Of a stretch of DNA of 64,000 bases, positions 1,960 through 43,342 are shown one piece after another (the first letter of the stretch is position 1; each line of letters opens with the position of its first letter). Below the pieces are notes generated by a model. It searched no databases. It was not told the DNA's origin and was given only the letters and a program-made list of their open reading frames with translations. The DNA comes from Streptomyces sp. NBC_01707 (GTDB taxonomy: Bacteria; Actinomycetota; Actinomycetes; Streptomycetales; Streptomycetaceae), in assembly GCF_041438805.1 (NCBI RefSeq), contig NZ_CP109190.1, positions 8,928,001 to 8,992,000 on the forward strand. Direction: 5' to 3'. Position numbers and translations under genes: made by a program.

Positions 1960-2289
1960 CAGACGCCGTTGTGAGATGTGCGTGCCCTTCGGTGGTCACC
2001 GGCTCCGGGCTGCTCTTTCCGATGGGCCGGTCGGCCCCTCCGTACAGCCCACCCGGCCCCGTGCTTCTGGTCCCCTCGGCACTGCGGCGATGGCGCCTCC
2101 GGAGCGATCGTGGAAGTCGAACGCCGTCTCGGGTTCCGCCTTCCGGAGAGGTGACAACGATGCAGCGCACTCGGATGCAGATGCGGCCGAGGCAGCCGCG
2201 CAAGCGCCCGCAGCTGGATCTGCGTACCCCCTTCGGTCGGTCGATGCCCTACTGAACCCCCGGCTACCGCACATATGGCGGAGGACATC
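1960..2289. promoter_or_regulatory. ppsA upstream region with a DosR-like palindrome (box A)
   Basis: This is a 330-bp gap without a convincing gene. It contains GGGCC-GGTC-GGCCC at 2024-2037, an exact copy of the palindrome that recurs before stress genes in this window. The box centre is about 260 bp upstream of the ppsA ATG, further than the other boxes, so either the promoter is distal or the site is not functional. A weaker GGTCCCC half-site lies near 2080. The ribosome site for ppsA is GGAGG at 2280-2284. Confidence 0.45.
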
Positions 2290-4716
2290 ATGGCAACCGC
2301 TCGACGGGTCGTACCGTTCGCAGAGCTCGGTCGGCAGGATGTCGGCTGTGTCGGTGGCAAGAACGCCTCCCTGGGAGAGATGACCGCACATCTGGCATCT
2401 GCAGGCGTGCGGGTGCCTCCTGGTTTCGCGACGACGGCGGACGCGTACAGAGATTTGCTCGACGGCCACGGACTGCGTGCGCGGATCGCAGCGCAGATCG
2501 GGCGTCTGCACGAAGGGGCCGGGTTGGATGAGGTGGGGGTGGCGATCCGGTCGATGATCATGGCTGAGGAGCTGCCGACCGGACTGGGGAGCGAGATCGT
2601 CACCGCGTACGAGAGGCTCGCGCGCGACCAGGGCCGCGAGGATCCCGAAGTCGCCGTGCGCAGTAGTGCTACCGCCGAGGACCTGCCAGAGGCAAGTTTC
2701 GCCGGCCAGCAGGAGACCTACCTGAACGTCCGCGGGCCTGCCCAGCTGTTGCAGGCCTGCCACCGCTGCTATGCCTCATTGTTCACCGACCGCGCGATCG
2801 ACTACCGGGAGCGGACGGGCTTCGACCACCTTTCGGTCGCTCTCTCCGTCGGCGTTCAGATCATGGTCCGCTCGGACCTCGCGGGCGCCGGAGTGATCTT
2901 CACCCTCGACCCCGAAAGCGGCTTCCCCGAGGTCATCGTGGTCAGCGCGGCGTGGGGCCTGGGCGAGACCGTCGTCAGTGGCCAGGTCGACCCCGACGAG
3001 CACACGGTCTTCAAGCCGAGCCTGAAGGACTCGGCACTGGATGCCGTGATCGATGTACGGGTCGGAGCGAAGCGGAAGAAGGCGGTCTATGGCGAGCACG
3101 GCCTGACCCGGACCGTCGACACGACCGGCGAGGAGCGCTCGCGACCTGTCCTGACAGCTGCGGAAGTCCGGCAACTGGCCGAATGGGCGATGACCGTCGA
3201 GGAGCACTACGGATGCCCCATGGACCTGGAATGGGCCAAGGACGGCCTGACCGGCGAGCTGGCGATCGTCCAGGCCCGCCCCGAAACCGTACAGTCCCGG
3301 CGCCGTACGACGACGCTGCGTCGCTGTCGCCTGACCGTCAGACCGGGGGAGAGCCTCATCGAGGGCATAGCGGTCGGCGAAGCCATCGGGTCCGGCCCGG
3401 TCGTCGTCCTCGACTCGCCTGTGGATCTCGACCGCTTCCCGACCGGCGGGGTGCTCGTCACCGGCATCACCGACCCGGACTGGGAACCGGTCATGAAGCG
3501 TGCCTCCGCCATCGTCACCGACCATGGCGGCCGGACCTCGCATGCCGCCATCGTCAGCCGTGAACTCGGCGTCCCAGCCGTCGTCGGCACCGGCCGGGCC
3601 ACCGAGTTGCTGTGCACAGGCCATGAGGCGACCGTCTCCTGTGCCGAGGGTGCCCGCGGTCAGGTCTACGCGGGACTCCTGGCCTACGAGGAGCACGAAA
3701 CCGATCTCGCCGAACTCCCTGCCACCCGGACCCGCGTGATGCTCAATCTCGCTGATCCGTCCGCAGCCTTCCGCTGGTGGCGCCTGCCCGCCGACGGCGT
3801 CGGGCTCGCGCGCCTGGAGTTCATCGTCGCCCACCAGGTCAAGGCCCACCCCATGGCTCTGCTGCACCCCGACCGAGTGGACCAGCACGACCGCTGCGCC
3901 ATAGAGCAACTCACCGAGGGTTGCCTCGACCGCGGCCAGTACTTCGTCGACCGACTGGCGCACGGTGTGGCCCGCATCGCCGCATCTCGATGGCCCGACC
4001 CGGTCGTCGTACGGACCAGCGACTTCAAGACCAACGAGTATGCGCGGCTGCTCGGCGGCCGGGCCTTCGAACCGGTCGAAGCGAATCCGATGATCGGCTG
4101 GCGCGGCGCGAGCCGCTACTACAGTGACGCTTATCGCGAAGGATTCGCCCTGGAATGCCGGGCACTGCGACGGGTTCGCGACGACTTCGGCCTGACGAAC
4201 GTCATCATCATGATTCCCTTCTGCCGCACCCTCGAAGAGGCCGACCGGGTTCTGGCCGTCATGGCGGAACAGGGGCTACGCAGGGGCGAGAACAGCCTCA
4301 AGGTGTACGTCATGGCGGAGATCCCGTCCAACATCATTCTGGCCGAGGACTTCGCCGCGCGTTTTGACGGCTTCTCCATCGGGAGCAACGACCTGACCCA
4401 GCTCACCCTGGGCGTCGACCGCGACTCCGAAGCCCTCGCCCATGTCTTCGATGAGACCAACCCCGCGGTCACGCGCAGCATCCAAACGCTGGTTCCGCGC
4501 GCCCAGTCCGTCGGCCGCACGGTCGGCCTCTGCGGCCAACGCCCCAGCGACGACCCCGCCTTCACGGAATTCCTGGTGAAGACCGGCATCGACTCGATCT
4601 CAGTGGCACCGGACAGCTTCGCCGCGGTGAAGCAGCACGTGGCTGCTGCCGAAATGAACCTGCACGGGGAGGACCGAACGGCCCTTTCGGGACCCGACCG
4701 CCCCGAGCGGGCCTGA
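2290..4716 (+). CDS. ppsA: Phosphoenolpyruvate synthase (pyruvate, water dikinase)
   Basis: 808 aa; catalyses pyruvate + ATP + H2O to PEP + AMP + Pi in the cytoplasm. The ATG at 2290 has GGAGG 5 nt upstream and is preferred to the ATG at 2275. The order is an N-terminal ATP-grasp nucleotide domain, a swivelling phospho-His domain with DHGGRTSHAAIVSRELG (His418, matching E. coli His421), and a C-terminal PEP/pyruvate barrel with GLCGQRPSDDPAF (Cys748, matching E. coli Cys751). Length matches the family (E. coli 792). It lies 69 bp before the Hsp20 gene, possibly cotranscribed. PPDK/PEP-synthase genes also occur in the S. coelicolor dormancy region, which supports a role in anaerobic or starvation energy balance. 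Confidence 0.9.
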   Translation: MATARRVVPFAELGRQDVGCVGGKNASLGEMTAHLASAGVRVPPGFATTADAYRDLLDGHGLRARIAAQIGRLHEGAGLDEVGVAIRSMIMAEELPTGLGSEIVTAYERLARDQGREDPEVAVRSSATAEDLPEASFAGQQETYLNVRGPAQLLQACHRCYASLFTDRAIDYRERTGFDHLSVALSVGVQIMVRSDLAGAGVIFTLDPESGFPEVIVVSAAWGLGETVVSGQVDPDEHTVFKPSLKDSALDAVIDVRVGAKRKKAVYGEHGLTRTVDTTGEERSRPVLTAAEVRQLAEWAMTVEEHYGCPMDLEWAKDGLTGELAIVQARPETVQSRRRTTTLRRCRLTVRPGESLIEGIAVGEAIGSGPVVVLDSPVDLDRFPTGGVLVTGITDPDWEPVMKRASAIVTDHGGRTSHAAIVSRELGVPAVVGTGRATELLCTGHEATVSCAEGARGQVYAGLLAYEEHETDLAELPATRTRVMLNLADPSAAFRWWRLPADGVGLARLEFIVAHQVKAHPMALLHPDRVDQHDRCAIEQLTEGCLDRGQYFVDRLAHGVARIAASRWPDPVVVRTSDFKTNEYARLLGGRAFEPVEANPMIGWRGASRYYSDAYREGFALECRALRRVRDDFGLTNVIIMIPFCRTLEEADRVLAVMAEQGLRRGENSLKVYVMAEIPSNIILAEDFAARFDGFSIGSNDLTQLTLGVDRDSEALAHVFDETNPAVTRSIQTLVPRAQSVGRTVGLCGQRPSDDPAFTEFLVKTGIDSISVAPDSFAAVKQHVAAAEMNLHGEDRTALSGPDRPERA

Positions 4717-4785
4717 CGTCCAGCGACTGAAACTGAACCCGACACCGCGGAAAGCGCCGCCAAGGCACTGGAGACGGAGGACACC

Positions 4786-5241
4786 ATGTCCGGAACCCAG
4801 ATGGAGCGCAGGCGTCACCTCTTCCCCGACCTCATGGACTGGTTCGGAACCGACTTTCCCCGCATCCCGATGTGGCGGCCGATGTCCGGAGTCCACCTGA
4901 TCCCGATCGAGGTGACCAGCCAGGAGGGACAGTACGTGCTGCGCGCCGAGCTCCCCGGGATGGACCCCACGAAGGACATCCACATCACGGTCGAGGGCGA
5001 CACCCTCACCGTCAGCGCCGAACACACTGAGAGCAAGGAGGAGAAGGATCACTCGGAGTTCCGTTACGGCTCCTTCCACCGCACCGTTCGCCTGCCGGCT
5101 CAGATTCCGTCCGAGGGGGTCGAGGCAGAGTACGAGGACGGCATCCTCACGGTGCGCGTAGAGATGGGGCCTGACGTACCAGACACGGCACGCAGCATCC
5201 CCGTCAAGAGGGCCACAACCAACGGTGACGCCGAGTCGTGA
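4786..5241 (+). CDS. Hsp20/alpha-crystallin small heat-shock protein
   Basis: 151 aa, an ATP-independent holdase chaperone. The ATG follows a GGAGG ribosome site about 7 nt upstream. The alpha-crystallin domain covers roughly residues 41-132: it begins IPIEVTSQEGQYVLRAELPGM and contains the conserved EDGILTVRV strand close to its end (the usual A-x-x-x-n-G-v-L motif region). A short hydrophobic N-terminal arm precedes it. It is the counterpart by family of M. tuberculosis HspX (Rv2031c), the best-known DosR-regulon product. No separate promoter box is visible in the 69-bp gap after ppsA, so read-through from ppsA is likely. Confidence 0.93.
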   Translation: MSGTQMERRRHLFPDLMDWFGTDFPRIPMWRPMSGVHLIPIEVTSQEGQYVLRAELPGMDPTKDIHITVEGDTLTVSAEHTESKEEKDHSEFRYGSFHRTVRLPAQIPSEGVEAEYEDGILTVRVEMGPDVPDTARSIPVKRATTNGDAES

Positions 5242-5340
5242 CGGATCGGCAGGTGCGGCGGTTGTTCGGCTGTCGTGCGAACGAGTTGCGACGCGCCGCT
5301 GACCGACAGCACGGCCACTGGCACGTCGGACCCCCGCTGG

Positions 5341-5406
5341 GCCGACCGGCCGCGGCGGGGGCCGGGAGCGGAAGCCGACCGGCCGCGGCGGAGGCCGGGA
5401 GCGGAA
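5341..5406 (+). repeat. Two tandem 33-bp repeats just before the P-type ATPase start
   Basis: Two adjacent 33-bp units (5341-5373 and 5374-5406) differ at one base only. Each runs from GCCGACCGGCC to GGGAGCGGAA. The second copy ends one base before the ATPase ATG at 5408, so the purine-rich GGGAGCGGAA serves as the ribosome site and exists twice, 33 bp apart. This looks like a recent tandem duplication of a translation-initiation region. Confidence 0.85.
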
Positions 5407-5407
5407 G

Positions 5408-8092
5408 ATGACTGAAGCCGACACCACCCCACACACCACCGGCCAGGGGCCGCTGCTGAGCCCCGACCCACTGGAGCCCCTGCCGTTGTTGCGGCGCGAA
5501 CTCGGCACAGGGGCGAGCGGCCTTTCCGCACGGGAGGCGGCCCGCCGCCTCGCCGTCTACGGTCCCAACGAGGTCCGCCGCAAGGCGAGGTCACCCTTGG
5601 GGCGCGAACTCGTCCGGCAGCTGGTCCACCCGCTCGCCCTGCTGCTCTGGGCGGCCGCAGCGCTGGCGTTCGTCGCCGACATCCCGGTGCTCGGCTGGGC
5701 CATTGTCACCGTCGTCATCGTCAACGCGGGGTTTGCGCTCCTTCAGGAGCGGCAGGCCGAACGGGCGGTGGAGACGCTGGCGAAATACTTGCCCGAGCAG
5801 GCCATGGTGATCCGGGACGGCCACCCATCGACCGTAGCAGCGAGGGGACTGGTGCCGGGAGACCTGGTCGTTCTCGAAGAGGGTGCCAAGGTCCCCGCCG
5901 ACGCACGTCTGGCCGACGGCGGCATTGAAGTCGACCTGTCGATGTTGACCGGTGAGTCCGCGCCTGCCGAACGCATCGCCGGTCCCGGACTCGTCGGGGC
6001 ACCGCTGTTGCAGGAGCCCAACCTCATTTTCAGTGGCACCACGTGCACGGGGGGCCAGGCCCGGGCGATCGTGTTCGCCACCGGCGACCACACGGAGCTC
6101 GGACGTATCGCCGCGCTGAGCCAGCGCACTCGACGTGACCCCAGCCCCCTGGAGAAGCAGGTAAAGAAGGTCGCCTGGCTCATTGCCGCCGTAGCGGTTG
6201 CCATGGGCGTGGTGTTCCTGATGGCCGGTGTGGCCGTGGGGCTGCCGCTGACTGACTCCCTCATGTTCGCGATCGGCCTGCTCGTCGCCAACGTGCCCGA
6301 GGGCTTGCTGCCGACCATCACCCTCGCACTTGCTGTCGGCGTGCGCGTACTCGCCCGCGAAGGAGCGGTGATAAAACGCCTGAGCGCCGTGGAGACGCTC
6401 GGATCCACAAACGTCATCTGCACGGACAAGACCGGCACTCTCACCCAGAACCGCATGAAGCTCCAAGCCGTGTGGACGCCGGAGCACGGTAGGGAAAACG
6501 GCCCCTGGGCGGGAGCGCTGGCGCGAACCAGCGCACTGTGTACCACAGTCTCCCGCGACGCCCAGGGCGAACTGCACGGAGATCCCACAGAGATCGCCCT
6601 GATCGAGGGTGCCGCGGCCCACGCCGCTCCCGTCGACCTCGACCAGCGGGACACCGGGCGTCACGCCCTCTTCCACTTCGACCCACGGCTGCGCCTGATG
6701 TCGGTCGTCCAGGGTGACGATGCGCAGCATATGCACGTCATCGTCAAGGGCGCACCGGAATCGGTGTCCCGCTCCCTGTCCGACGGCCACGATGCGGCGG
6801 CGTTGGCCGCGGCGGACGATCTCGCGCATGACGGCATGCGCGTGTTGGCCGTCGCCGGCCGTGAGCTGTCCTCAGGATCCGAGCTGCCGGCCCGGCGCCA
6901 GGACGCGGAGACAGAATTGCGGCTCCTGGGCCTTGTCGGCCTGTACGACCCGCCACGGCCGGAAGTCGCGGACGCCGTTCGCCGCTGTCACGAGGCCGGA
7001 CTCCGCGTCCACATCGTCACTGGCGACAACGGTGCCACCGCCGCGGCAGTAGCCCGTGAAGTGGGCATCGGAGAACCGAGCCTGCACGTGGTGGCGCAGT
7101 CCGAGTCGATCGGCGACCACGACCTCGACCAGGTCCTGGCACACGGGAACGCAGAGGTCGTCTTCGCGCGCTCCTCACCCGAGACCAAGCTGAAAGTGGC
7201 CGACACCCTGCGCGCCCACGGGCAGATCGTCGCCATGACAGGCGACGGCGTCAACGACGCCCCCGCCCTCCACCGGGCACACATCGGTGTCGCCATGGGC
7301 CGCTCCGGCACGGATGTCGCCCGTGAGGCTGCGACCATGGTGCTGACCGACGACAACTTCGCCACCATCGTCGATGCCATCGAGTCGGGGCGTCGGGTCT
7401 ACGACAACGTGCGCAAGTTCATCGTCTACATATTTGCCCACCTCACCCCCGAAGTCGTCCCCTTCCTGGTCTTTGCACTCTCTGCCGGTGCCGTACCACT
7501 GCCGCTGACCGTGCTGCAGATCCTGGCCATCGACCTCGGTACCGAGACTCTCCCGGCGCTCGCACTCGGCCGCGAACGAGCCGAGCCGGGTGTCATGAGC
7601 CGCCCACCACGCCCGAGTTCGCAGGGAGTGATTTCCCGCGACATGCTTCTCCGCAGCTGGGGCCGACTGGGCGCGGTCTCCGCCGCTCTGATCATGACCG
7701 CCTTCTTCTATGTGCTGTGGCGGGCGGGCTGGCACCCCGGCAGTGCGACAGGCCCCGGCACGGCGCTGCACCACGCGTACATGACCGCGACCACCGCCAC
7801 GTTCGCCGGCATCGTCACCTGCCAGGTCGGCACTGCGATGGCCGCCCGCACCGACCACGCCGCGCTGCGAGACATCGGTCTGTTCACCAACCCCCTGCTC
7901 TTGGCCGGTATCGCCTTCGAGCTGGCCTTCACCGCAGTACTCGTCTATGTGCCGCTCCTCCAAGGGCTGTTCGGTACGGCCGCCCTGCCCCCCGACGTCG
8001 TCGCCTTGATTGCTACCTTCCCCGTGCTTGTCTGGGGTACGGACGAACTGCGGCGTTGGGTCCGACGCGCACACCGAAAAACACAGCCCTGA
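5408..8092 (+). CDS. P-type cation ATPase resembling the Na,K-ATPase (IIC) branch
   Basis: 894 aa integral membrane ATPase. Motifs in order: N-terminal cation_ATPase_N region; actuator LTGES (about residue 179); M4 PEGLLPT (P297-E298-G299-L300); phosphorylation motif [11 protein letters not shown] (D340); hinge GDGVNDAP (D613, D617); and M6 [14 protein letters not shown] (D709). The PEGL motif in M4 and IDLGT[ED] in M6 match Na,K-/H,K-ATPases better than the NLVTDGLPA of calcium pumps. The transported ion is not proven. Ten membrane segments are expected, four in the last 300 residues. The gene follows hsp20 after 166 bp and converges with a Usp gene. A weak purine-rich ribosome site lies in a tandem duplication. 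Confidence 0.88.
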
Positions 8093-10517: not shown

Positions 10518-10758
10518 GATTCCTCCGAGAACGAACGGCCCTATATGTCCCGGCGTCGGCAGCGTTGTCTGCCGGCGGTAGGACCACCCGGGGTCCACAG
10601 GGGACTGTTCGGCTCTGTTGTCCTGACGTGAACGGTGCTTTCATGAAATTGACGGAAAGAGTCATTGCGAGGATGCGGAGAAGCGGCTGGCGGCCGTGCA
10701 CCGCACGATCGGGAACCGCGAGAAGCGGTCGGCTCTTTCCGTCCCATGGTGTGAGTGC

Positions 10759-12343: not shown

Positions 12344-12413
12344 GCCACGAACCTCCCGTCTCGCAGCTTTGTCGTCCTCTCTCAGTGTGGCCCGCGGGCC
12401 AGGAGCGGAGGAG

Positions 12414-12447
12414 GGGCCATGTGGCCCGTTGCGGGGCCGATCAGCCC
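12414..12447. promoter_or_regulatory. Two DosR-like palindromes 20 bp apart (boxes B and C)
   Basis: Box B is GGGCC-ATGT-GGCCC (12414-12427) and box C is GGGCC-GATC-AGCCC (12434-12447, one mismatch). Their centres are exactly 20 bp apart, two helical turns, so bound dimers would sit on one face of the DNA. They are 77 and 97 bp upstream of the Usp start at 12343. Paired sites at about this distance are typical of DosR/NarL-type activators; the assignment to such a regulator is inference. Confidence 0.55.
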
Positions 12448-12483
12448 CACCGTGTCTTGGGGACGCGTCTCGCAGCTCTCCGG

Positions 12484-13173: not shown

Positions 13174-13286
13174 GGAGGCTCCTCCTGCCGTCTCGCCGAC
13201 CCGCACGGACGCAATGCCGGAGGTCGTTCAGAGACCACGATCCGCCGGCCGTACCGGAGTGAGGAGGGCCGAATGGGTCTCAGCCG

Positions 13287-13353
13287 GGACCGGTCGGACC
13301 CGGCTCGAGTGCTCGGACAGGGCAGGATTCCCTCGACAGGGACCATTGGGCCC
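13287..13353. promoter_or_regulatory. DosR-like palindromes between divergent CBS-BON and Usp genes (box D and a partial site)
   Basis: Box D is GGACC-ATTG-GGCCC at 13340-13353, centred 97 bp upstream of the Usp ATG at 13444, the same distance as box C from its Usp gene. A second, weaker site GGACC-GGTC-GGACC lies at 13287-13300; its right half has one mismatch. Both fit the 5-4-5 pattern. The region between 13174 and 13443 is otherwise non-coding and must hold both divergent promoters. Confidence 0.5.
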
Positions 13354-13443
13354 CGGGCGGTCCTGAGCGGCCCTCCACATGCGGGGCCCCGCGGTGGCAG
13401 CGTGAGAGCTGCCCATTTTGCCGGCTCTCGGTGAGGAGGAACC

Positions 13444-24130: not shown

Positions 24131-24225
24131 GCGCTTGCCTCTTCCCGCCGGACAGGCCCGCCAGTTGTACCGGGTCCGCGCGGGGGCCGTACGGGGTGAC
24201 GGACACCGCCACCTGGACCACGCAG

Positions 24226-24239
24226 GGGCCGGTCGGCCA
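24226..24239. promoter_or_regulatory. DosR-like palindrome in the divergent hydrogenase promoter (box H)
   Basis: GGGCC-GGTC-GGCCA has one mismatch to the consensus and shares a 13-base core with box A upstream of ppsA. Its centre is 74 bp upstream of the hydrogenase beta-subunit ATG and 102 bp from the protease ATG, so it could serve both. In M. smegmatis the group 3b hydrogenase Hyd3 is under DosR control, which makes this site meaningful if a DosR/OsdR homologue exists in this genome. Confidence 0.5.
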
Positions 24240-24306
24240 TGGCGGGCAGCAGGTCCGTGCGCATACTGGCCGGGAAGGCATCATCGGCGACGTCGGAAGG
24301 CTGGCG

Positions 24307-25467
24307 ATGGCGGACGGCGGCGGCACGGCCGCGGTGATCGGCAAGGACGGCCTGGACGCGCTGATCACGGTCCTGGCCGGGCGCGGCCGTACGGTCGTGG
24401 GACCGACCGTCCGCGACGGGGCGATCGTCCTGTCCGAGATCTCCGGCGGTGCCGAACTCCCCTACGGCTGGGGAGTCGAGTTGGAGGCAGGCGTCTACCG
24501 GCTGCGTGCCCGTGAGGACGGCGCCGTGTTCGCGCACAGCGCGGGCCCTCAGTCCTGGAAAACGTTTCTGCATCCGCCGCGGGAGCGGCAGTGGACTGCC
24601 GATCGCGGTGCCGACGGCGAGCTGATGGTGACCGAGGACCGGACATCACCGTCGTCGTACGCGTTCCTCGGCGTGCGCCCCTGCGACCTGCGGGCCATCG
24701 CAATTCAGGACCGGGTGCTGACCGGCGGGAAGTACAACGACCCGGCGTACCGTGGGCGTCGTGAGCGGGCCTTCTTGGTGGCGGCGGAGTGTACCGAGCC
24801 GGGTGCCACCTGCTTCTGCGTGTCCATGGGAAGCGGGCCGGCCGTGGGGCCCGGCTACGACCTGGCGCTGACCGAGGTGCTCGATTCCGACGGCCACCGC
24901 TTCCTGGTGCGGATCGGGAGCGAGGAGGGAGAGTCGGTCCTGGCCGAGCTGCCCCACGGTCCCGCCGACGCCGCGACTCGGACCGCGGCGAGTGAGCGTG
25001 TCGCCGACGCGGCGGATCGCATGGGCCGCAGCATGCCGTTGGTGGACCTGCAGATGCTGATGCGCGAGACGCTCACGGCCGAGCGCTGGGACGACGTCGC
25101 GGACCGCTGCCTGACCTGCGGAAACTGCACCATGGTCTGCCCGACCTGCTTCTGCACCACCACCGAGGACATCACGGACCTCACCGGTGACCACGCCGAG
25201 CGATGGCGGCGCTGGGAGTCCTGCTTCGACCTGGATTTCTCCCATCTGCAGGCGGGTCCGGTCCGCAACTCCTCGCGTAGCCGCTACCGGCAGTGGGCCA
25301 CCCACAAACTCGGCACCTGGCACGACCAGTTCGACAGCTCCGGGTGCGTCGGCTGCGGGCGCTGCATCGTGTGGTGTCCGGTCGGTATCGACATCACCGA
25401 GGAGGCCCAGGCGCTGAACCTGGAACGGGAGGCCGCCCGGCAGGAGCCGGGGGAGAGCCCGCAATGA
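24307..25467 (+). CDS. hydB: Group 3b-type hydrogenase/sulfhydrogenase beta subunit (4Fe-4S)
   Basis: 386 aa from the ATG at 24307 with GGAAGG 6 nt upstream; an upstream in-frame start at 24196 is less likely. The protein carries two four-cysteine clusters: CLTCGNCTMVCPTCFC from C268 (with extra C281 and C283) and GCVGCGRCIVWCPVG from C347. N-terminal two thirds contain SSYAFLGVRPCDLRAIAIQD, typical of HydB-like subunits. It would pass electrons between the small subunit and the flavoprotein. First gene of a five-gene operon; its stop overlaps the next start (ATGA). Cytoplasmic. Confidence 0.88.
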   Translation: MADGGGTAAVIGKDGLDALITVLAGRGRTVVGPTVRDGAIVLSEISGGAELPYGWGVELEAGVYRLRAREDGAVFAHSAGPQSWKTFLHPPRERQWTADRGADGELMVTEDRTSPSSYAFLGVRPCDLRAIAIQDRVLTGGKYNDPAYRGRRERAFLVAAECTEPGATCFCVSMGSGPAVGPGYDLALTEVLDSDGHRFLVRIGSEEGESVLAELPHGPADAATRTAASERVADAADRMGRSMPLVDLQMLMRETLTAERWDDVADRCLTCGNCTMVCPTCFCTTTEDITDLTGDHAERWRRWESCFDLDFSHLQAGPVRNSSRSRYRQWATHKLGTWHDQFDSSGCVGCGRCIVWCPVGIDITEEAQALNLEREAARQEPGESPQ

Positions 25468-25922
25468 CCGTTGTGCGCCACGGGTTTCTCGGGGCCCTGT
25501 CGCCCGGCCACCGCGAGCGGCTGATCACGTTCGCCCACGATGTCTCCTTCCCCGGTGGCACCCGCATCTTCGACGAGGGCGGTGTCGCCGACCGGTTCTG
25601 GATCATCCGTTCCGGGCTCGTTGCGCTCGACGTTCATGTTCCGGCCCGCCGCGAGGCAGTCCTGGAGACCCTTGGTGAAGGCGATCTGCTGGGCTGGTAC
25701 TGGCTGTTCGAGCCGTACCTCTGGCACCTCGGCGCGCAGGCCCGCAGCGCCGTGTCGGCGTCAGAGTTCGACGCGCAGCAGGTCCGAGCCGCGTGCGAGA
25801 AGGACCCGTCGTTCGGCTTGGCGTTGACCAACTGCGTTGCGCAGGTGATCGCACGACGGCTGAAGTCCACCCGAATCCGCCTGCTCGACCTGTACGGGCC
25901 CCCCGACGCCGGTGAGTCGTGA
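25464..25922 (+). CDS. Cyclic-nucleotide-binding-domain protein inside the hydrogenase operon
   Basis: 152 aa from the ATG at 25464, overlapping the previous stop by 4 bp. The fold is a CRP-like cupin: FPGGTRIFDEGGVADRFWIIRSGLVAL and LGEGDLLGWYWLF (phosphate-binding-cassette region), followed by the long C helix ending ARRLKSTRIRLLDLYG. There is no helix-turn-helix, so it is not a DNA-binding CRP/FNR regulator. The cassette lacks the canonical R-A-A of cAMP receptors (LWHLGAQARSAVSA is seen), so ligand identity is open. Overlaps on both sides imply stoichiometric synthesis with the enzyme; a regulatory subunit or chaperone of the hydrogenase is my inference. Confidence 0.8.
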   Translation: MTVVRHGFLGALSPGHRERLITFAHDVSFPGGTRIFDEGGVADRFWIIRSGLVALDVHVPARREAVLETLGEGDLLGWYWLFEPYLWHLGAQARSAVSASEFDAQQVRAACEKDPSFGLALTNCVAQVIARRLKSTRIRLLDLYGPPDAGES

Positions 25923-26758
25923 TCATGGCTTCCGCAACATTGACTGCTCGGCCGGGAACCGTCCCCATTGCGTACCGGGTGGTGAATCGCGAGGCCGAGA
26001 CGCCCGACACCGCCACGATCGTCCTGGAACCGGTCCGCTCGGCGCTGCAGCCCTTCGCGCCCGGGCAGTTCGCGATGGTGTACGCCTTCGGCATCGGTGA
26101 CATCCCGTTGTCGGTCTCCGGGATCGACGGGAACCGGCTGACGCACACCGTCCGGACGGTCGGAGCGGTCTCCGGCGCGCTGCACGGGCTGCGGCGTGGT
26201 GACACGGTCGGAGTGCGTGGCCCGTTCGGCCACGGCTGGGAACTACCTGCCGCAGTTGGTACCGACCTGCTCGTCGTCGCTGGAGGTATCGGTCTGGCGC
26301 CGCTGCGCCCACTTGTACGTGACGCGCTCGCCGCCCCCGAGCGCTACGGACGGCTGAACGTCCTCATCGGAGCGCGCACGCCCCACGAGCTGCTCTACAC
26401 CGAGGACGTTCGCGGTTGGCAGTCGGCTGCCCGGGTCTTGACCACCGTGGACCGCGCTGACCCGCTGTGGCAGGGCGAGGTCGGCGTCGTCACGACCCTG
26501 CTCGATCGGGCCACCTTCGGGCCCGCAGCGTCTGCGGCGTTCATCTGCGGCCCCGAGCCGATGATGCGCGCCACCGCCGGCGAACTGGTACACCGAGGCA
26601 TCGATCCGCACCTGATTCAGGTCTCGCTGGAACGAAATGTGCACTGTGCCACTGGCCACTGCGGGCACTGTCAGCTCGGCCCCCTCCTGCTCTGCCGCGA
26701 CGGCCCCGTCGTCAGCTGGAGCAAGGCCCAAACCCTCCTCATGGTCAGGGAGTTGTGA
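25919..26758 (+). CDS. hydG: Hydrogenase gamma subunit, FAD/NAD(P)-binding with [2Fe-2S] (PyrK-like)
   Basis: 279 aa; GTG at 25919 overlaps the previous stop (GTGA), with an ATG at 25925 as alternative. The FAD-binding barrel (about 1-95) has [23 protein letters not shown]. The nucleotide-binding half has [15 protein letters not shown] and [14 protein letters not shown]-terminal [2Fe-2S] site is built from C243, C248, C251 and C259 ([17 protein letters not shown]). This is the layout of dihydroorotate dehydrogenase electron-transfer subunits and of the HydG subunit of NADP-reducing hydrogenases. It is the site where NAD(P)+ is reduced or NAD(P)H oxidised. Confidence 0.9.
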
Positions 26759-26759
26759 C

Positions 26760-27542
26760 ATGACCGCGAGCGATCGTCCGAAACTCGCCGTCTGGAAGTT
26801 CGCCTCCTGCGACGGATGCCAACTCACTTTGCTGGACTGCGAGGACGAACTCCTCGGCATCGCCGAGAGGGTGGAGATCTCACACTTCCTGGAGGCTTCC
26901 AGCACCGACGCGCCGGGGCCGTACGACCTGTCGCTGGTCGAGGGATCGGTGACCACCCAGCAGGACGTCGACCGGGCCCGGCACATCCGGGCGGTTTCCA
27001 AGCGGTTGGTGACCATCGGGGCGTGCGCGACCGCAGGTGGCGTCCAGGCGCTGCGCAACTACGCGGATGTCGCTGACTTTCAGGCTGTCGTCTATGCCAG
27101 ACCGGACTACATCGAGACGCTCGCTACCTCCACACCTATCAGCGCCCATGTCCCGGTGGACTTCGAACTGCGCGGCTGCCCCATCGACCGAGGCCAACTG
27201 GTGGAAGTCATCACGGCCTACCTGGCCGAACGCAAACCCGACGTACCCGCGCACAGCGTCTGCTTCGAGTGCAAGCAGCGCGGCACGGTCTGCGTGACGG
27301 TGGCCCACGGCACACCCTGCCTGGGTCCGGTCACCCACGCCGGATGCGGTGCGATCTGTCCCGCGTACGGGCGCGGCTGTTACGGCTGCTTCGGCCCGTC
27401 CAACTCGACCAACTTCCCCTCGTTCATTCCCCTCCTGCGCCGCGATGGCATGGACACTCTCGACGTGGTGCGGGTGCTGCGCACCTTCAATGCCGCCGCC
27501 CCTGAGTTCGACGCGGCCTCCCGGAAGGAACTGGAAGAGTGA
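26760..27542 (+). CDS. hydD: [NiFe] hydrogenase small (delta) subunit
   Basis: 260 aa from the ATG at 26760, one base after the previous stop. It belongs to the NADH:quinone oxidoreductase 20-kDa/hydrogenase small-subunit family: [19 protein letters not shown] supplies the first two proximal-cluster cysteines (C17, C20), GACATAGG the third, and [24 protein letters not shown] the last ligand and further cysteines for additional clusters. No Tat signal is present, in keeping with a cytoplasmic group 3 enzyme rather than a membrane-bound uptake type. The stop overlaps the GTG of the large subunit by 4 bp. Confidence 0.92.
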
Positions 27543-28906
27543 CCCACCGCGGCTCAAGGGTGTTGAAAGTCGGATCGCTCGCCCGCGTCGAGGGTGAGGG
27601 CGCACTGCATCTGCGCATGGACGGCGGCGAGGTCGCAGAGGCCCGGCTGGCGATCTACGAACCGCCACGCTTCTTCGAGGCGTTCCTACGCGGACGCTCC
27701 TACGCCGAGCCGCCCGACATCACCTCACGGGTGTGCGGGATCTGCCCGGTCGCGTACCAGATGAGCGCTTGCCGAGCGATCGAGGACGCCTGCGGCGTCG
27801 TCGTGGACGGGCAGTTGGCGGCGCTGCGCCGACTGCTCTACTGCGGCGAATGGATCGAGAGCCAGACGCTGCACATCTACCTTCTCCACGCGCCCGACTT
27901 CTTCGGCTGCGACAGCGCCATCGACCTCGCACGCACCCGGCGCGCCGACATCGAACGCGGCCTTCGGCTCAAGCAGGCCGGCAACGCGATCCTCGAACTG
28001 CTGGGCGGCCGGGCGATCCATCCGGTCAATGTCCGCCTCGGTGGCTTCCACCGCATCCCGATCACGACCGAACTGCGCCCGCTGGCCGATCGGCTGCGCC
28101 AGGCCCGGGACGACGCGGCCCAAACCGTCCGTTGGGTGGCCGGCTTCGAGTTCCCTGACGCCGGTTGTGACAACGACCTGTTCGCTCTGTCCGAGCCCGG
28201 CACCTACGCCATCGAGTCCGGCACCCCGACCGTCATGCCCGCGCCGCACATCGCTGGCCTTCCCCCCGAATCCGACCGCGCGCTGCCCACCCGTACCTTT
28301 GGGGTCCACGATTTCGGCGCCCGCGTCACCGAGAGCCAGGTACCCCACTCCACCGCCCTCCACTCCGCGCTGGACAACCGCCGCCATCTCACCGGCTCAC
28401 TCGCCCGGTACGCCATCAGCGGCCGCTGGCTGTCCCCGATCGCCCTCCAGGCCGCCCACGACGCCGGACTCGGCGACCCCCGGCAGGGCACCGTCTGTCG
28501 AAACCCCTTCCGCAGCATCATCGTGCGAGCGGTTGAGGTGCTCTACGCGGTCGACGAGGCACTGCGGATCATCGACGCCTACGAACCCCCGCCGCACCCC
28601 TACGTCGACGTGCCCTCCCGAGCCGGTACCGGGCATGGGGCGACCGAGGCGCCGCGCGGTCTCTTGTACCACCGCTACACCCTCGACTCCGAAGGGATCG
28701 TCACCGACGCCAGCCTTGTCCCGCCGACCGCGCAGAACCTGGGTGCGATCGAGGAGGACCTCCGCCGAATCGTGCAGGAACGCCTGGGAGACGGCGATCC
28801 CACCGACGCGGAGCTGACCGCCCTGTGCGAACGGGCGGTCCGCAATCACGACCCGTGCATCTCATGCTCGGCCCACTTCCTCAATCTCACCGTCGAGCGG
28901 ACCTGA
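27539..28906 (+). CDS. hydA: [NiFe] hydrogenase large (alpha) subunit
   Basis: 455 aa from a GTG overlapping the previous stop. The nickel ligands are C66 and C69 ([11 protein letters not shown]1 motif) and C440 and C443 ([10 protein letters not shown]2 motif). In most hydrogenases L1 ends in His; here that position is Tyr73. After H446, the expected cleavage site, only FLNLTVERT remains, to be removed by the protease encoded divergently. Gene order (Fe-S subunit, flavoprotein, small, large) and lack of signals fit cytoplasmic NAD(P)-linked group 3b enzymes, which oxidise H2 or discharge reductant as H2 and may reduce sulfur. It is the last gene of the operon. Confidence 0.93.
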
Positions 28907-29199: not shown

Positions 29200-29481
29200 T
29201 CAACCGGGCGCGGCAAGGCCACCCGACGCGGAGTCGGCTCTTCCGGCGCGGAGCAGCTGGTTACCGAGGTCGATCAGGGCTCGGCCGACGGCGAACTCGT
29301 CGCCGATCTCGGGAACGGGTGTGTCGTTAGGGTTGCGCTGGGCGGAGGTGCGACTCCGAAGGGTGGTGTCACCGGTGTCGAGGACGGCGTGAACCTTGGT
29401 GAGGTCACCTTCCTCGAAGAGGTCCAGACCCACGTTCCAGTGCTTGCTGTGTGGTTTCTCGGTGCCGGTGTGCAGGGTCAT
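29200..29481 (-). CDS. DUF1876 protein (Rv1738-like, possible ribosome-associated stasis factor)
   Basis: 93 aa; ATG at 29481 with GGAAGG about 10 nt upstream (AAGG repeated). The core KHWNVGLDLFEEGDLTKVHAVLD...RNPNDTPVPEIGDEFAVGRALIDL is the DUF1876 pattern. M. tuberculosis Rv1738, a strongly DosR-induced protein, belongs to this family, and its structure was reported to resemble ribosome hibernation factors. A similar role here is inference. The C-terminal tail after QLLRAG is poorly conserved. It is divergent from the SHOCT gene across 385 bp holding two palindromic boxes and a large inverted repeat. Confidence 0.85.
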   Translation of the reverse strand: MTLHTGTEKPHSKHWNVGLDLFEEGDLTKVHAVLDTGDTTLRSRTSAQRNPNDTPVPEIGDEFAVGRALIDLGNQLLRAGRADSASGGLAAPG

Positions 29482-29643
29482 GGCCAAGCCTTCCTTCCGT
29501 TGAATGGTCCAGCCTGCCGGGGGCGCGACCGCCGTCGGCACGCCGGTTTCCCACGACGGCGAAGTACGAGGATTCGGCGCAGAAACGATCCTTCTCGAAT
29601 TGTTCCGGCCTCCATTCTGCGCCGTGTGAGCTGTTCCGGGCTT

Positions 29644-29657
29644 GGGCCTACTGGCCC
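29644..29657. promoter_or_regulatory. DosR-like palindrome (box F) between DUF1876 and SHOCT genes
   Basis: GGGCC-TACT-GGCCC is an exact 5-4-5 palindrome. Its centre is about 169 bp upstream of the DUF1876 start. Its right half overlaps the left arm of the 20-bp inverted repeat at 29653-29700, so protein binding and cruciform or RNA hairpin formation could interfere with each other. Confidence 0.5.
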
Positions 29658-29700
29658 ACAGGGCGTGCCGGAGAGGTCCGTCCGGCACGCCCTGTGGGCC
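29653..29700. repeat. Perfect 20-bp inverted repeat with 8-nt loop
   Basis: Left arm 29653-29672 (GGCCCACAGGGC...) and right arm 29681-29700 are exact reverse complements, separated by GAGGTCCG. The RNA would fold into a very stable GC-rich hairpin with no U tract. It lies upstream of two divergent genes, where a terminator for neighbours is not needed, so a regulatory or leader role, or a mobile-element scar, are the alternatives. Confidence 0.8.
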
Positions 29701-29736
29701 GTCCTGCGAGCACGCGGCTGACCGTCCGGCAACCGG

Positions 29737-29750
29737 GGACCATCCGGCCC
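29737..29750. promoter_or_regulatory. DosR-like palindrome (box I) upstream of the SHOCT gene
   Basis: GGACC-ATCC-GGCCC matches box D in type. The centre is 123 bp upstream of the SHOCT-protein ATG. Together with box F it brackets the inverted repeat in the divergent region. Confidence 0.45.
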
Positions 29751-29866
29751 TACACCGGCGGTCAGGGCCGAGGGACCGTGGTAGTGACAGTGACAGTGAC
29801 AGAGAACGTGGCAGGACAGCGGGCTCCGCGCCCGGGGCCCCGGCAACAACCGGGAAGTGAAACGCG

Positions 29867-32258: not shown

Positions 32259-32282
32259 GCCATTCAGGACCGGGGCGGCGAC

Positions 32283-32296
32283 GGGACCGTCGGCCC
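32283..32296. promoter_or_regulatory. DosR-like palindrome (box G) in a convergent gap
   Basis: GGGAC-CGTC-GGCCC is the copy closest to the mycobacterial DosR half-site (GGGAC). However, it lies between the ends of two convergent genes (32258 and 32483), 25 bp after the CBS-BON stop, where no promoter is expected. It may be a chance match or drive an antisense transcript. Confidence 0.25.
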
Positions 32297-32482
32297 TTCG
32301 CGCAACGGGTGAACGCCGGTCCGTGTTGTCTGCACAGACCTTGACGGCCGGGTTCGCGCCACTTCAGCCGATGATCTTGATGAGGAATGGCCGGGCCCTT
32401 TCGTGGCTTGCGGGACGCGCACGCGCGGTGTGGACTCCGTCGGCCAGCTCGCACTGATTGATGGGGGAGCGGTGACTGTCCG

Positions 32483-34914: not shown

Positions 34915-35430
34915 TCAGTCACGGTTGGAGTGCGCGGTTGAGGAGTAGGCGTCGTGCCAGGCGGCTTTGGCACCGGACTCGCCGATTCGGTACACCTGTA
35001 CGCCCGCGCCGACTCCGACGACGAGGGACAGAACCGCTGCCGTGATGCGCAGCGGGATGGCCACCGTGCTGGTGGATCCCCCCGCGTCGGGGGTGCGGTG
35101 GGCGGTGTGGTGGTAGGACCACCACACCGCCGTGGCCGCCAGGAAGAGTGCGACGACCCAGGGAAGGAGTTCCTCGCCGAGTTCGGTGTGCTTGCGGACC
35201 AGGGCGTCGCTGTCCACGTGCCGCTCCAGCCACTCGCCGGCGTTTGTCGTCAACGGCACGCTAATCAGGGACACCAGGGCGAGGGCCGGGAGTGCAAGTC
35301 CGAACCGGCGCATGACCGAGGGGAGGGCGGCGCACAGGATCAGAGCGAGAGCAGTGAGGGGTACCAGGATCACGACGAAGTGCACGAACAAGACGTGCGC
35401 GGGAATGCCGTTGATCAGGTCGGGTCCCAC
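34915..35430 (-). CDS. DUF2231-family membrane protein
   Basis: 171 aa; GTG with GGAG 7 nt upstream. Four membrane segments are visible (about residues 11-34, 44-62, 89-105, 127-146). The N-terminus DLINGIPAHVLFVHFVVILVPL has the His residues and Pro typical of DUF2231, a family suspected of binding heme or metal in the membrane. A second His pair, YHHTAHR, follows the third segment. It lies 138 bp downstream of apbE on the same strand; whether it is part of the flavin-relay unit is unclear. Confidence 0.75.
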   Translation of the reverse strand: MGPDLINGIPAHVLFVHFVVILVPLTALALILCAALPSVMRRFGLALPALALVSLISVPLTTNAGEWLERHVDSDALVRKHTELGEELLPWVVALFLAATAVWWSYHHTAHRTPDAGGSTSTVAIPLRITAAVLSLVVGVGAGVQVYRIGESGAKAAWHDAYSSTAHSNRD

Positions 35431-36760: not shown

Positions 36761-36771
36761 GGCGGTTCTCC

Positions 36772-38256: not shown

Positions 38257-38303
38257 CAGGGCCAGCCCTGCTGTGGTCCGTGCTGGGGGATGCTGAAGGA
38301 ACC

Positions 38304-40558: not shown

Positions 40559-43246
40559 TCAGCGCAGCCGACGCAGATACGGGTCGTGGGCATGGCGCGG
40601 GACGAGCCGGACGCGGGCGTCGAGCGTCGTGATCCCGTGCGCCCCGGCGAGGACCGGGTTGAGGTCGACGTCGGCCAGCTGGGGCAGGTCCGAGGCCATT
40701 CGCGACAGCCGATGCAGCAGCTGCTCCAGAGCACCGAGGTCGGCGGTGGGACGGCCGGCGTAGCCGAACAGCAGCGGCGAGCAGCGTGGCGAGGTCAGCA
40801 GGTCGTGCGCGTCGAGCTCCGTCAGCGGGGCCAGCCGGGCCGCATGGTCGGCGAGCAGTTCGGTCGCCGTACCGCCCAGCCCGAACACCACGAGGGGTCC
40901 GAAGACCTCGTCCTGGACGACCCCGGCGAACAGTTCGGTGCCGCGTTCGGCGAGTGGCTGGATGACCACCCCAGTCATCCGGTCACCGAACCGGGTGACC
41001 AGATCACGGTGAGCGGCTCTGATCTGGGAGGCGTTGTGCAGGTCCAGGTGGAGGGCGTGCTGCTCGCTCTTGTGCAGCAACCCTGGCCAGTAGGCCTTCA
41101 TCACGACGCGCCCGTCAGGCCCTGCGAGTCGCTCGGCCGCGTCGACGGCCTCGTCCTCGTCCCGGGCCCACGCCCAGGGGATCTGAGGGATGCCGTAGCA
41201 GGCGAGGAGCGCCGCGGTCGCCTGCGGATCCAGCCAGCCACCTTTCGGGTTGCCGTCCAGATATGCGGCGGCGAGATCCCGTGCGCGGCCGGTCTCCACG
41301 CTCGGCAAATCGGGTACTGAACTCGGTAGCCGGGAGAGCCAGTCGGCGCGGGCGGCGGTGTGGGCGAGGGCACGGGCGGCGTCCTCGGCGTCCGAGTACG
41401 CGGGGACGGCGGTCTCGTCGGTGGCCGGTAGAAGTTCGACACGGGCTGCCTGGGCGGGTAGGACCGCAATGACCGGACGAGGGAGCGGCTCTGGGGCCGA
41501 TGTCAGGGCGCGTACCAAGTCCTCGCCGGTGGCGGTGGCGACAGCAGTGGGGACCAGTGCCACAAGTACGGCGTCCACGGCGCCGTGCCGGGCCAGGAGG
41601 CTGACGCACGCCTGTAGTTGCTTTTCGCCGACCGCCGCAGTGACGTCCACGGGATTGGTGGCAGTGGCACCATCCGGCAGTAGGCCAAGAAGCTCGTCCA
41701 CCAGGTCGGCGCTGAGCGCCGGGACGACGAGCCCGGCGTCCGTGCACGCGTCCGCGGCCAGGACTCCCGCTCCCCCCGCATTGCTCACAACAACGACCTT
41801 GGTACCTGCGGCCAGGGGCTGTGCATGCAGCAGGGCAGCGGTGTCCAGGAGCTCGCCGATGGTGCGGGTGGCAGTAATACCGGCCTGGGTGAACAGAGCC
41901 TGCCGGGTCATGGTCGGGGTGGCCGCCGCCGCGGTGTGGGAGGCTGCGGCGCGCCGGCCGGCCTCGGATCGGCCGGCGTCCACGGTGAGTATCGGCATCG
42001 CCCGGGCCACTCGGCGGGCGGTGCGCGAGAAGGCACGGGGGTTGCCGAAGGATTCCAGATGCAGCAGCGCCAGGTCCGTGTGCCCGTCGCTCTCCCACCA
42101 CTGGAGCATGTCGTTACCGCTGACGTCGTACTTGTCGCCGAGCGAGACGAAGCTGGACGCGCCGATGCCGAGGCGGGCGAGGCCATCCAGCAGCGCGATG
42201 CCGACACCGCCTGATTGCACGGCGACTCCAGCGGTTCCCGGTCCGGGATGGCGGGCAGCGAAGGTCGCGTCGAGACGTACGCGGTCCTCCGTGTTGGCGA
42301 GCCCTAGGCAGTTGGGACCAACCAGTCGCATACCGTGGCGCCGGCACGAGCCCATCAGGCCCGCGGCCTGGTGCGTGTTCAGTCCCGCAGAGACCACGAG
42401 CAAGGCTCGCACGCCAGCCTTCCCGCACTCCTCTGCCACTCCGTCGACGTACGCGGCCGGTATGGCGATCACGGCCAGGTCAGGCACCTGCGGCAGATCG
42501 GCGACGGAGCTGTAGGCGTGTACTCCGGCGACGGCTGCCGCTTCGGGGTGTACGGCGTAGACCAGCCCGGTGTAGGAGCCGGTGCGGATGTTCCTCAGGA
42601 TCGCCCGCCCTACGGAGCCTGGCTTGCGTCCGGCACCGATCACCACAACGGCCCTCGGCCGCAGCAGCGGCTGCAGGCTGACGACGTCGGCGACCCGGCC
42701 CCGGATCTCGACGGCATTCAGGTAGGTGTTGTCCTCCGTGAGTTCGACCGTGCAGTGCACCTCAGGACCGTCGAAGTGACTGGTGACGCGCAGCCCCAGG
42801 TCGTGGAAGACCTTCAGCACATCGTGATTCTCGGCCAGGGCGTCCGCGCTGAACGCCGTCACCCCTGCCGTACGGGCCGCGTCCGCCAGGTGTTCCAGCA
42901 ACAGCGTCGCCACACCCCGGCGGTGCCACCCTTCGGCGACGGCCACCGAGATCTCGGCGGTGCTTCCTGGTGGCAGGACCTCGTATTCCGCCAGGCCCAC
43001 CAGATGTCCCGCGTATTCAGCTGCTAGCGCGCGGTAGCCAGGCCGCTCGCCCGCTGCCACGCGGTCGGCGGCCTTCCCTGCGGAGGCGGGGTTGGCGGAG
43101 AAGAACCGCAGCCGCAGATTCTCCGGCGACATCTCCTGGTACAGCCGTAGCACTTCTTCGCGGTCCGCCGATCCCGCCTGGCGAATCCGTACGGTGGTGC
43201 CGTCGCCCAGCAGTGCGTGCACCGGGGCTTCCTTGGTGCCGGTCAT
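40559..43246 (-). CDS. patA: GNAT acetyltransferase fused to ADP-forming acyl-CoA synthetase (PatA-like)
   Basis: 895 aa from the ATG at 43246 (GAAGGAG 8 nt upstream). The frame continues upstream into IS remnants, but that is fortuitous. Order: GNAT domain (about 15-165, VAEGWHRRGVATLLLEHLADAA), CoA-binding Rossmann domain (AVVVIGAGRKPGSVGRAIL), ligase domain with AAASHTAA (H437, position of the phospho-His of acetyl-CoA synthetases) and ATP-grasp (VVMKAYWPGLLHKSEQHALHLDL). N-terminal GNAT is the reverse of Salmonella Pat and matches S. lividans PatA, which acetylates and inactivates acyl-CoA synthetases. Palindromic box E lies 89 bp upstream. Confidence 0.87.
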   Translation of the reverse strand: MTGTKEAPVHALLGDGTTVRIRQAGSADREEVLRLYQEMSPENLRLRFFSANPASAGKAADRVAAGERPGYRALAAEYAGHLVGLAEYEVLPPGSTAEISVAVAEGWHRRGVATLLLEHLADAARTAGVTAFSADALAENHDVLKVFHDLGLRVTSHFDGPEVHCTVELTEDNTYLNAVEIRGRVADVVSLQPLLRPRAVVVIGAGRKPGSVGRAILRNIRTGSYTGLVYAVHPEAAAVAGVHAYSSVADLPQVPDLAVIAIPAAYVDGVAEECGKAGVRALLVVSAGLNTHQAAGLMGSCRRHGMRLVGPNCLGLANTEDRVRLDATFAARHPGPGTAGVAVQSGGVGIALLDGLARLGIGASSFVSLGDKYDVSGNDMLQWWESDGHTDLALLHLESFGNPRAFSRTARRVARAMPILTVDAGRSEAGRRAAASHTAAAATPTMTRQALFTQAGITATRTIGELLDTAALLHAQPLAAGTKVVVVSNAGGAGVLAADACTDAGLVVPALSADLVDELLGLLPDGATATNPVDVTAAVGEKQLQACVSLLARHGAVDAVLVALVPTAVATATGEDLVRALTSAPEPLPRPVIAVLPAQAARVELLPATDETAVPAYSDAEDAARALAHTAARADWLSRLPSSVPDLPSVETGRARDLAAAYLDGNPKGGWLDPQATAALLACYGIPQIPWAWARDEDEAVDAAERLAGPDGRVVMKAYWPGLLHKSEQHALHLDLHNASQIRAAHRDLVTRFGDRMTGVVIQPLAERGTELFAGVVQDEVFGPLVVFGLGGTATELLADHAARLAPLTELDAHDLLTSPRCSPLLFGYAGRPTADLGALEQLLHRLSRMASDLPQLADVDLNPVLAGAHGITTLDARVRLVPRHAHDPYLRRLR

Positions 43247-43328
43247 CGCAAGATCTCCTTCCGGACGCTTCCTCTCCAGTGTTCGGCGCGTGCTCCGTGG
43301 GCCACAGGGGCTGAGCGGGTAAGCGGCG

Positions 43329-43342
43329 GGGCCGATTGGCCC
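43329..43342. promoter_or_regulatory. DosR-like palindrome upstream of patA (box E)
   Basis: GGGCC-GATT-GGCCC is exact, and with one further base each side forms GGGGCC-N4-GGCCCC. It is centred 89 bp upstream of the patA ATG, the same distance range as at the Usp and hydrogenase genes. A degraded second site, GGGCC-ACAG-GGGCT, lies 30 bp nearer the gene (43299-43312). Confidence 0.55.

Follow-up and report, generated by a model that had tools for sequence, protein, structure and literature searches.

The dormancy regulator DosR (DevR) of mycobacteria recognizes the palindrome GGGAC-N4-GTCCC, and Rv2632c-like (DUF1876) genes belong to its targets. Its counterpart in Streptomyces, OsdR, has been described as part of the OsdKR system of S. 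coelicolor (SCO0203/0204; Urem et al. 2016, PMC5069765). From the regions upstream of osdR in 12 Streptomyces species these authors derived the consensus AGGGCCGATCGGCCCT, and they list predicted OsdR sites of S. coelicolor, part of which were confirmed by gel shift, with the SCO0207/SCO0208 region among those bound (PMC5069765). In S. lividans, the OsdR regulon including pyruvate phosphate dikinase (PPDK) rose together in a protein-producing strain (PMC6302529), and in M. smegmatis the cluster msmeg_3926-3955 with Hyd3 was raised at 2.5% oxygen saturation (PMC2799521). Here we analyse a stretch of 64,000 nucleotides from Streptomyces sp. NBC_01707 (contig NZ_CP109190.1, positions 8,928,001 to 8,992,000; hereafter the window), in which a 14-bp palindrome, GGRCC-N4-GGCCC, recurs in a stress island with universal stress protein (Usp) genes and a [NiFe] hydrogenase operon. 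Seven-digit positions refer to the contig, all others to the window.

The palindrome is identical in S. coelicolor and in our locus, and both have osdR, Usp and PPDK (SCO0208) genes as targets, here predicted, and a clustering around osdKR (PMC5069765). A nitroreductase-like gene, recognized by eye just upstream of the window, is likewise of a kind targeted by OsdR in S. coelicolor (PMC5069765). The box stands at -81 relative to osdR in S. coelicolor (PMC5069765) and at -83.5 before the nearer of our osdR-like copies, if the second ATG is the start. Unlike S. coelicolor, our organism has two osdR-like copies, and its island holds the hydrogenase operon and Hsp20, PatA-like and CBS-BON genes; the accessible text of PMC5069765 contains no word beginning with "hydrogenase" and no "CBS". 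With mycobacterial DosR/DevR the locus has in common the 5-4-5 palindrome and Usp and heat-shock (hspX) targets, whereas the box itself differs in that GGGCC-N4-GGCCC dominates here. The adjacent high- and low-affinity sites of mycobacterial DevR (PMC3029386) resemble the paired boxes described below. In gene content the island is similar to msmeg_3926-3955, which lies near a devR copy and includes, besides a cation P-type ATPase and a phosphoenolpyruvate (PEP) synthase, five [NiFe] hydrogenase genes (PMC2799521); that cluster belongs to another genus.

The palindrome matches the published OsdR box and is enriched in the island

The motif is already known: it is the published OsdR box of Streptomyces. 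We consider it highly probable that phosphorylated OsdR (DosR/DevR family) binds these palindromes and that they mark a low-oxygen survival island including the hydrogenase operon, as predicted from the DNA. The OsdR matrix was built from the 25 distinct S. coelicolor sites of Table 1 of PMC5069765, most of which are predictions rather than footprints, with a duplicate sequence used once. Both strands were scanned in a sample of 384 contiguous kb (window included) and 20 spaced control stretches of 20 kb (400 kb). Gene calls came from a purpose-built finder based on codon usage; the Pfam search covered 30 window proteins and a small frame of 31 amino acids (aa). The island was taken as 8868001-8972500; since these limits were chosen after the matches had been seen, its enrichment is favoured, a bias of which the fixed window is free.

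At scores of at least 12, the island held 11 matches in 19945 intergenic bp and one in 84554 coding bp (p = 1.2e-7), the sole coding match being the box at 4670, 108.5 bp before hsp20. The odds of a match in the island were, for intergenic DNA, 47 times those of coding DNA and 23 times those of intergenic DNA sampled elsewhere. The window alone gave 5 matches in 9562 intergenic bp and 2 in 54438 coding bp (p = 0.0012); at scores of at least 15, with 2 intergenic and 1 coding match, the contrast was no longer clear (p = 0.06). The rest of the 384 kb outside the island, again at 12 or more, yielded 5 matches in 61238 intergenic and 6 in 218248 coding bp (p = 0.07), and the 20 control stretches 2 in 84489 intergenic and 1 in 315211 coding bp. 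The original prediction had named an equal density of the motif in coding or in unrelated intergenic DNA as the outcome that would speak against it; the density in the island is above both. In 30 loci of relatives, 66 matches fell in 83945 intergenic bp and 13 in 459834 coding bp.

At scores of at least 10, the window contains 11 matches close to the consensus, the best with 17.9. Eight of them lie within 320 bp before a start, and 32060, 32282 and 57749 lie outside that range. The DosR/OsdR-type reading that had been drawn from the 5-4-5 geometry is supported in so far as the motif matches the published OsdR consensus and two OsdR-like regulators stand upstream; it does not extend to 12414, 13340 and 29644, which score below 10 and are not among the 11.

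Exact copies of GGGCC-N4-GGCCC were found at 2024, 12414, 29644 and 43329, as reported originally, with no further one in the window; the five listed variants (12434, 13340, 24226, 29737 and 32283) are all present with a single mismatch each, and all nine sites are non-coding by our gene calls. Site 24226 falls in an upstream extension of the hydrogenase frame (24196-25467) that was the gene finder's first choice, the internal ATG at 24307 being the likelier start. For the five sites said to be centred 74-97 bp before a start codon (12414, 12434, 13340, 24226 and 43329) we measured 77.5, 97.5, 97.5, 74.5 and 89.5 bp. The earlier estimate of about two exact matches per 64 kb was too high: shuffling of the whole window gave a mean of 0.48 and no shuffle out of 100 with four, and the genome density of 110 per 9.9 Mb corresponds to 0.71 per 64 kb (four seen, Poisson p = 0.006). 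Simulated intergenic DNA contained 0.13 exact matches on average, and none of 300 runs had four. In the control stretches, exact matches numbered 0 in intergenic and 5 in coding DNA. Genome-wide, the exact palindrome is about half as common as a mirrored control (110 vs 214 in 9.9 Mb), so it is rare rather than common in this genome. Sites with at most one mismatch are not enriched in the window as a class (19 vs a shuffle mean of 16.0; 22 of 100 shuffles had at least 19); ten of the 19 are intergenic, where 2.8 are expected (p = 1.4e-4). The nine sites originally listed belong to this set of 19, from which nine coding sites and one intergenic site (5339) had been omitted, and the list lacked the best-scoring OsdR box of the window, 4670.

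Sites and predicted target genes in the window

The strong and well-placed boxes, by score and position, are 4670 (predicted target hsp20), 2023 (small frame and ppdK), 12433 (Usp), 43328 (PatA-like) and 24225 (hydrogenase). The predicted boxes and genes are as follows; the 16-bp boxes begin one base before the 14-bp palindrome.

2023..2038, OsdR box TGGGCCGGTCGGCCCC, score 15.6, 129.5 bp before the 31-aa frame and about 259 bp before the ppdK start at 2290
2160..2255 (+), 31-aa small reading frame between box 2023 and ppdK, conserved, no Pfam match
2290..4716 (+), pyruvate phosphate dikinase ppdK (PEP synthase-like; Pfam PF01326, PF02896, PF00391), likely target
4670..4685, OsdR box AGGACCGAACGGCCCT, score 17.9, best in the window, within the 3' end of ppdK and 108.5 bp before hsp20
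4786..5241 (+), Hsp20/alpha-crystallin small heat-shock protein (PF00011), likely target
5338..5353, weaker OsdR box of medium score (11.4), 62.5 bp before the P-type cation ATPase gene 5408-8092
10527..10542, weaker match of medium score (11.7), 17.5 bp before the CBS-BON gene 9915-10517 (-), an unusual placement
12413..12428, exact palindrome GGGCCATGTGGCCC, matrix score only 3.0, 20 bp from box 12433
12433..12448, OsdR box GGGGCCGATCAGCCCC, score 15.0, 97.5 bp before the Usp gene 11474-12343 (-)
13265..13301, weak box pair 13265 and 13286, 21 bp apart, scores 8.2 and 9.4, between the divergent CBS-BON (12484-13173, -) and Usp (13444-14346, +) genes
13339..13354, weak site GGACCATTGGGCCC of the original list, score 6.9 (8.1 one base earlier)
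24225..24240, OsdR box GGGGCCGGTCGGCCAT, score 13.0, 74.5 bp before the hydrogenase operon
24307..28906 (+), [NiFe] hydrogenase operon of five genes, coding for an Fe-S protein, a cyclic nucleotide (cNMP)-binding protein, an FAD/NAD(P) subunit and the small and large subunits (Pfam)
29643..29658, exact palindrome GGGCCTACTGGCCC, score 6.0, a poor OsdR match between the DUF1876 and SHOCT genes
29736..29751, OsdR box of medium score (10.6), 123.5 bp before the SHOCT gene 29867 and 262.5 bp before the DUF1876 gene 29200-29481 (-)
32282..32297, match between convergent genes, score 12.6, the next start being more than 320 bp away
40559..43246 (-), GNAT acetyltransferase fused to an acyl-CoA synthetase (PatA-like; PF00583, PF13607, PF13549), likely target
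43328..43343, OsdR box GGGGCCGATTGGCCCC, score 15.0, 89.5 bp before the PatA-like gene

In the exact palindromes 12413 and 29643 the central four bases are not of the form G..C, and both are poor OsdR boxes. The matches 32060 and 57749 lie inside genes and, like 32282, are probably not regulatory.

The regulators and the sensor kinase

Two OsdR-like regulators are encoded upstream of the window, the nearer one at a distance of 4-5 kb beside a DevS/DosT-like kinase, the farther one, 77% identical to it, about 57 kb away. The best match of the nearer regulator in the PDB is DevR (3c3w, E = 4.6e-75), and a box with a score of 16.5 stands before its gene at 8923771. It keeps the motif EKTVKN with K179, K182 and N183 (DevR numbering), which we take to be the DNA contacts, and the position of Asp54, presumably the site of phosphorylation; an OsdR-like gene with the contact and phosphorylation positions of DevR is present in the genome. 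A third OsdR-like regulator is encoded at C1:5109925 (63% identical). Among the 25 NCBIfam matches listed of 90 there was no DosR model, and the best, MadR, was far below its cutoff. All 30 hydrogenase-bearing genomes searched (own included) encode an OsdR-like regulator of at least 56% identity.

The kinase gene lies 5-7 kb upstream of the window. Its product matches DosT (2vzw, E = 2.8e-48 for the GAF domain) and DevS both in their GAF domains and in their C-terminal kinase domains. Its long frame adjoins the nearer osdR copy. Near the farther copy, at G000:C1:8875805-8876454, an OsdK-like kinase is represented by two short neighbouring frames (126 and 90 aa) and may thus be broken. Among the called genes of the window we noticed no OsdR-type regulator. 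The frame 34298-34948 (+) was considered as a missing response regulator and dropped after its translation had been read, and the GAF protein 32483-33889 was rejected as the kinase because it carries a SpoIIE phosphatase domain. The genes at 38280/39035 resemble, by eye, a two-component pair of the OmpR type.

The hydrogenase operon in related genomes

Of 150 genomes of the genus, 33 encode the hydrogenase large subunit (E at most 0.001; our genome is counted), three of these 33 (G095, G100 and G123) with weak partial matches. The best NCBIfam match was a sulfhydrogenase subunit for three of four hydrogenase proteins and AsrB for the FAD/NAD one, all scores being below the curated cutoff; the operon may encode a hydrogenase of group 3b, the NAD(P)-linked [NiFe] type with four sulfhydrogenase-type subunits.

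A sizeable share of the relatives carries a box before this operon. Within 320 bp before the first gene, a score of at least 12 was reached in 14 of 30 fetched loci (about 0.2 expected), which represent 29 genomes, one having given two loci. The same holds for 25 of 77 scorable named loci (about 0.6 expected), and 18 of these 25 boxes stand at -70 to -105. The named loci are the best 80 of at least 587 confirmed ones, of which 77 were scored; the start is misplaced for L201 and uncertain for L232, and both were entered as misses. The two sets share some species, and since related species are not independent, the binomial values for the boxes of relatives are too small. In mycobacteria, nine of ten loci have no box of at least 12 before the Fe-S gene of the hydrogenase. 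A single locus (L225), from a metagenome assembly labelled Trueperaceae, a family outside Actinobacteria, has a box of 14.2 at 92 bp before the hydrogenase Fe-S gene; chance or misbinning is possible in this case.

The relatives support the [NiFe] hydrogenase operon as a predicted OsdR target, for which we found no printed report in the literature searched. No paper on OsdR control of hydrogenase in Streptomyces was found in a search whose coverage excludes most subscription journals, and none joined DosR, "group 3b" hydrogenase and hypoxia. PMC6302529, the one paper found that mentions OsdR, hydrogenase and Streptomyces together, uses the word "hydrogenase" a single time, for NADH hydrogenase.

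A conserved small reading frame before ppdK

When loci were located via ppdK and not by the peptide, a frame similar to the 31-aa frame was seen 123-131 bp before ppdK in five of eight relatives, and four of the eight have a box at -258 to -263 with a score of 11.6-13.3; four other relatives had no box of at least 12 within 300 bp. A search with the peptide found the frame in 40 of 295 genus genomes (own included; E at most 0.01). The motif was seen in 26 of 30 peptide loci inspected, 12 of them with a box of at least 12. Fifteen of the 26 (own included) were picked by their likeness to the type of the window: in 11 of these ppdK is the next gene and in one hsp20 (both by eye), in three an unrecognized gene, and 13 have an upstream box of at least 11.6, L249 (9.3) and L256 (2.3) being lower. 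The other 11 motif loci stand elsewhere and have no box above 7.3.

Across the 15 loci, the share of comparisons with a difference is 17% at codon position 1, 23% at position 2 and 46% at position 3; for the last 14 codons alone the values are 8%, 7% and 47%. This pattern is the mark of a translated frame, with the restriction that picking loci by the peptide itself lowers the differences at the first and second positions. The peptide tail LDLRTPSGRPLPY occurs in many relatives; Pfam gave no match for two tested 31-aa peptides, and we found no paper on the tail in the literature. The frame may represent a new small protein. As a predicted OsdR target it is supported by the relatives, and the literature searched contained no printed report of it.

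Other predicted targets and paired boxes

For other targets we counted boxes of at least 12 within 300 bp before genes that are best hits, so that paralogues are mixed in, above all for Usp and CBS-BON. A box was present before both Hsp20 genes of the fetched loci and before two of three PatA genes, at -90 and -94. Best matches to the Usp gene 11474-12343 had a box in two of three relatives and those to 13444-14346 in two of four; the Usp families overall gave 13/25, 2/3, 2/4 and 1/1. The hydrogenase protease, which in the window shares a divergent region with the hydrogenase, had a box in 10 of 26 relatives. The remaining counts were 1/1 for DUF1876, 0/1 for SHOCT, 1/1 for the second ATPase, 1/4 for PPK2, 0/2 for the first P-type cation ATPase (gene 5408-8092) and 0/5 for the CBS-BON gene 12484-13173, and no box was found in relatives' loci for the single NAPRT match, the single DUF2231 match or two PPOX matches. 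The presence of a box before related genes in other species is thus borne out in part, namely for hydrogenase, Hsp20, PatA and, at a constant place, ppdK, and not for the ATPase.

The boxes are often paired. Around 77 intergenic boxes of at least 12 (island and 30 relatives' loci), we looked for a second box of at least 5 at 12-80 bp. Of the 50 second boxes, 28 stood at 19-22 bp; after removal of repeats, so did those of 23 of 41 distinct pairs, the 23 including overlapping readings of one place in locus L079. Cooperative binding to a high-affinity site and a neighbouring low-affinity one is known for DevR (PMC3029386), and a spacing of 19-22 bp would fit two dimers on the same face of the helix. 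By this preferred spacing, 12413 may be a low-affinity partner of 12433, though its score of 3.0 is below the limit of 5 in the pair test.

Other features of the window were noted. The island has six CBS-BON genes between 9276 and 32258, and only a part of these are close to an OsdR box. Upstream of the PatA-like gene, the gap 43376-44120 contains fragments that resemble, by eye, an integrase-type transposase. Rfam gave no match in the window, and no tRNA was found there.

Alternative explanations and proposed mechanism

Several observations weigh against control of the island by OsdR. The farther regulator lacks a box of at least 10 in the 300 bp around its start; the closest one is about 2.4 kb off. 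Before the hydrogenase, a box of at least 12 within 320 bp is missing in 16 of the 30 fetched loci and in 52 of the 77 named loci, including the nearest named relative (L157, large subunit 88% identical). The relatives' CBS-BON genes have a box in 0/3, 0/5, 2/19 and 1/7 cases and ppdK in 0/4. Among the sites originally listed, 12414 (3.0), 29644 (6.0) and 13340 (6.9) score low, and 32283 stands before no start. It is rather probable that some listed sites, chiefly 29644 and 32283 but perhaps 12414 and 13340 as well, are GC-rich palindromes that arose by chance in a region with 69% GC, as suggested by their low matrix scores or the lack of a gene start downstream and by the absence of enrichment of the sites with at most one mismatch. 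Against chance, exact intergenic matches are far above simulation, and 12414 sits 20 bp from a strong box, at the preferred pair spacing. Chance would trim the list of sites, while the explanation by OsdR stands.

Regulators other than OsdR may have similar palindromes, and another NarL-type or Crp-like regulator of the island could bind the boxes instead; 150 response-regulator candidates were counted in our genome at first look, a third OsdR-like regulator is encoded at C1:5109925, and cNMP-binding domains are encoded in the island (partly by eye). We regard this as very unlikely, as the consensus is the same as that of the OsdR box gel-shifted in S. coelicolor (PMC5069765) and a box precedes the nearer OsdR-like gene. 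Hardly credible is a role of the palindromes as transcription terminators or as repeat elements without regulatory function: although they are GC-rich inverted repeats and 32283 lies between convergent genes, 15 of 16 intergenic island matches of at least 10 have a start codon in the next 300 bp, a zone that holds 64% of the intergenic island bases, and their positions recur in relatives (hydrogenase 18/25 at -70 to -105; ppdK 4/8 at -258 to -263).

We prefer OsdR as the binding protein. In the mechanism that we propose, the DevS/DosT-type GAF sensor kinase beside the nearer osdR would sense that oxygen is lost or that the redox state changes, and would phosphorylate OsdR. OsdR dimers would bind the 16-bp palindrome, which mostly lies 60-130 bp ahead of the start codon; in many cases two dimers would sit on neighbouring boxes separated by about two turns of the helix. 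Bound OsdR would activate the island, namely the PEP-producing dikinase, Hsp20, the universal stress proteins, the hydrogenase and the PatA-like acetyltransferase. We infer oxygen sensing, phosphorylation and activation from published OsdR and DevR work.

Conclusions

As the box element itself is known, what makes the locus interesting is the hydrogenase as a predicted target, the spacing of the paired boxes and the small frame. Our analysis puts a Streptomyces-type stress island under a described low-oxygen regulator, names the promoters concerned and ties, as a prediction, a [NiFe] hydrogenase to the OsdR regulon; the rule of paired boxes may improve the prediction of OsdR targets. We lean slightly towards the view that OsdR drives a branch of hydrogen metabolism in hydrogenase-bearing streptomycetes, together with a 31-aa protein encoded on one transcript with the PEP-forming dikinase. 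In this view the dormancy regulon would include hydrogenase-based redox disposal, for which the hypoxia cluster of M. smegmatis is suggestive, and a new small protein.

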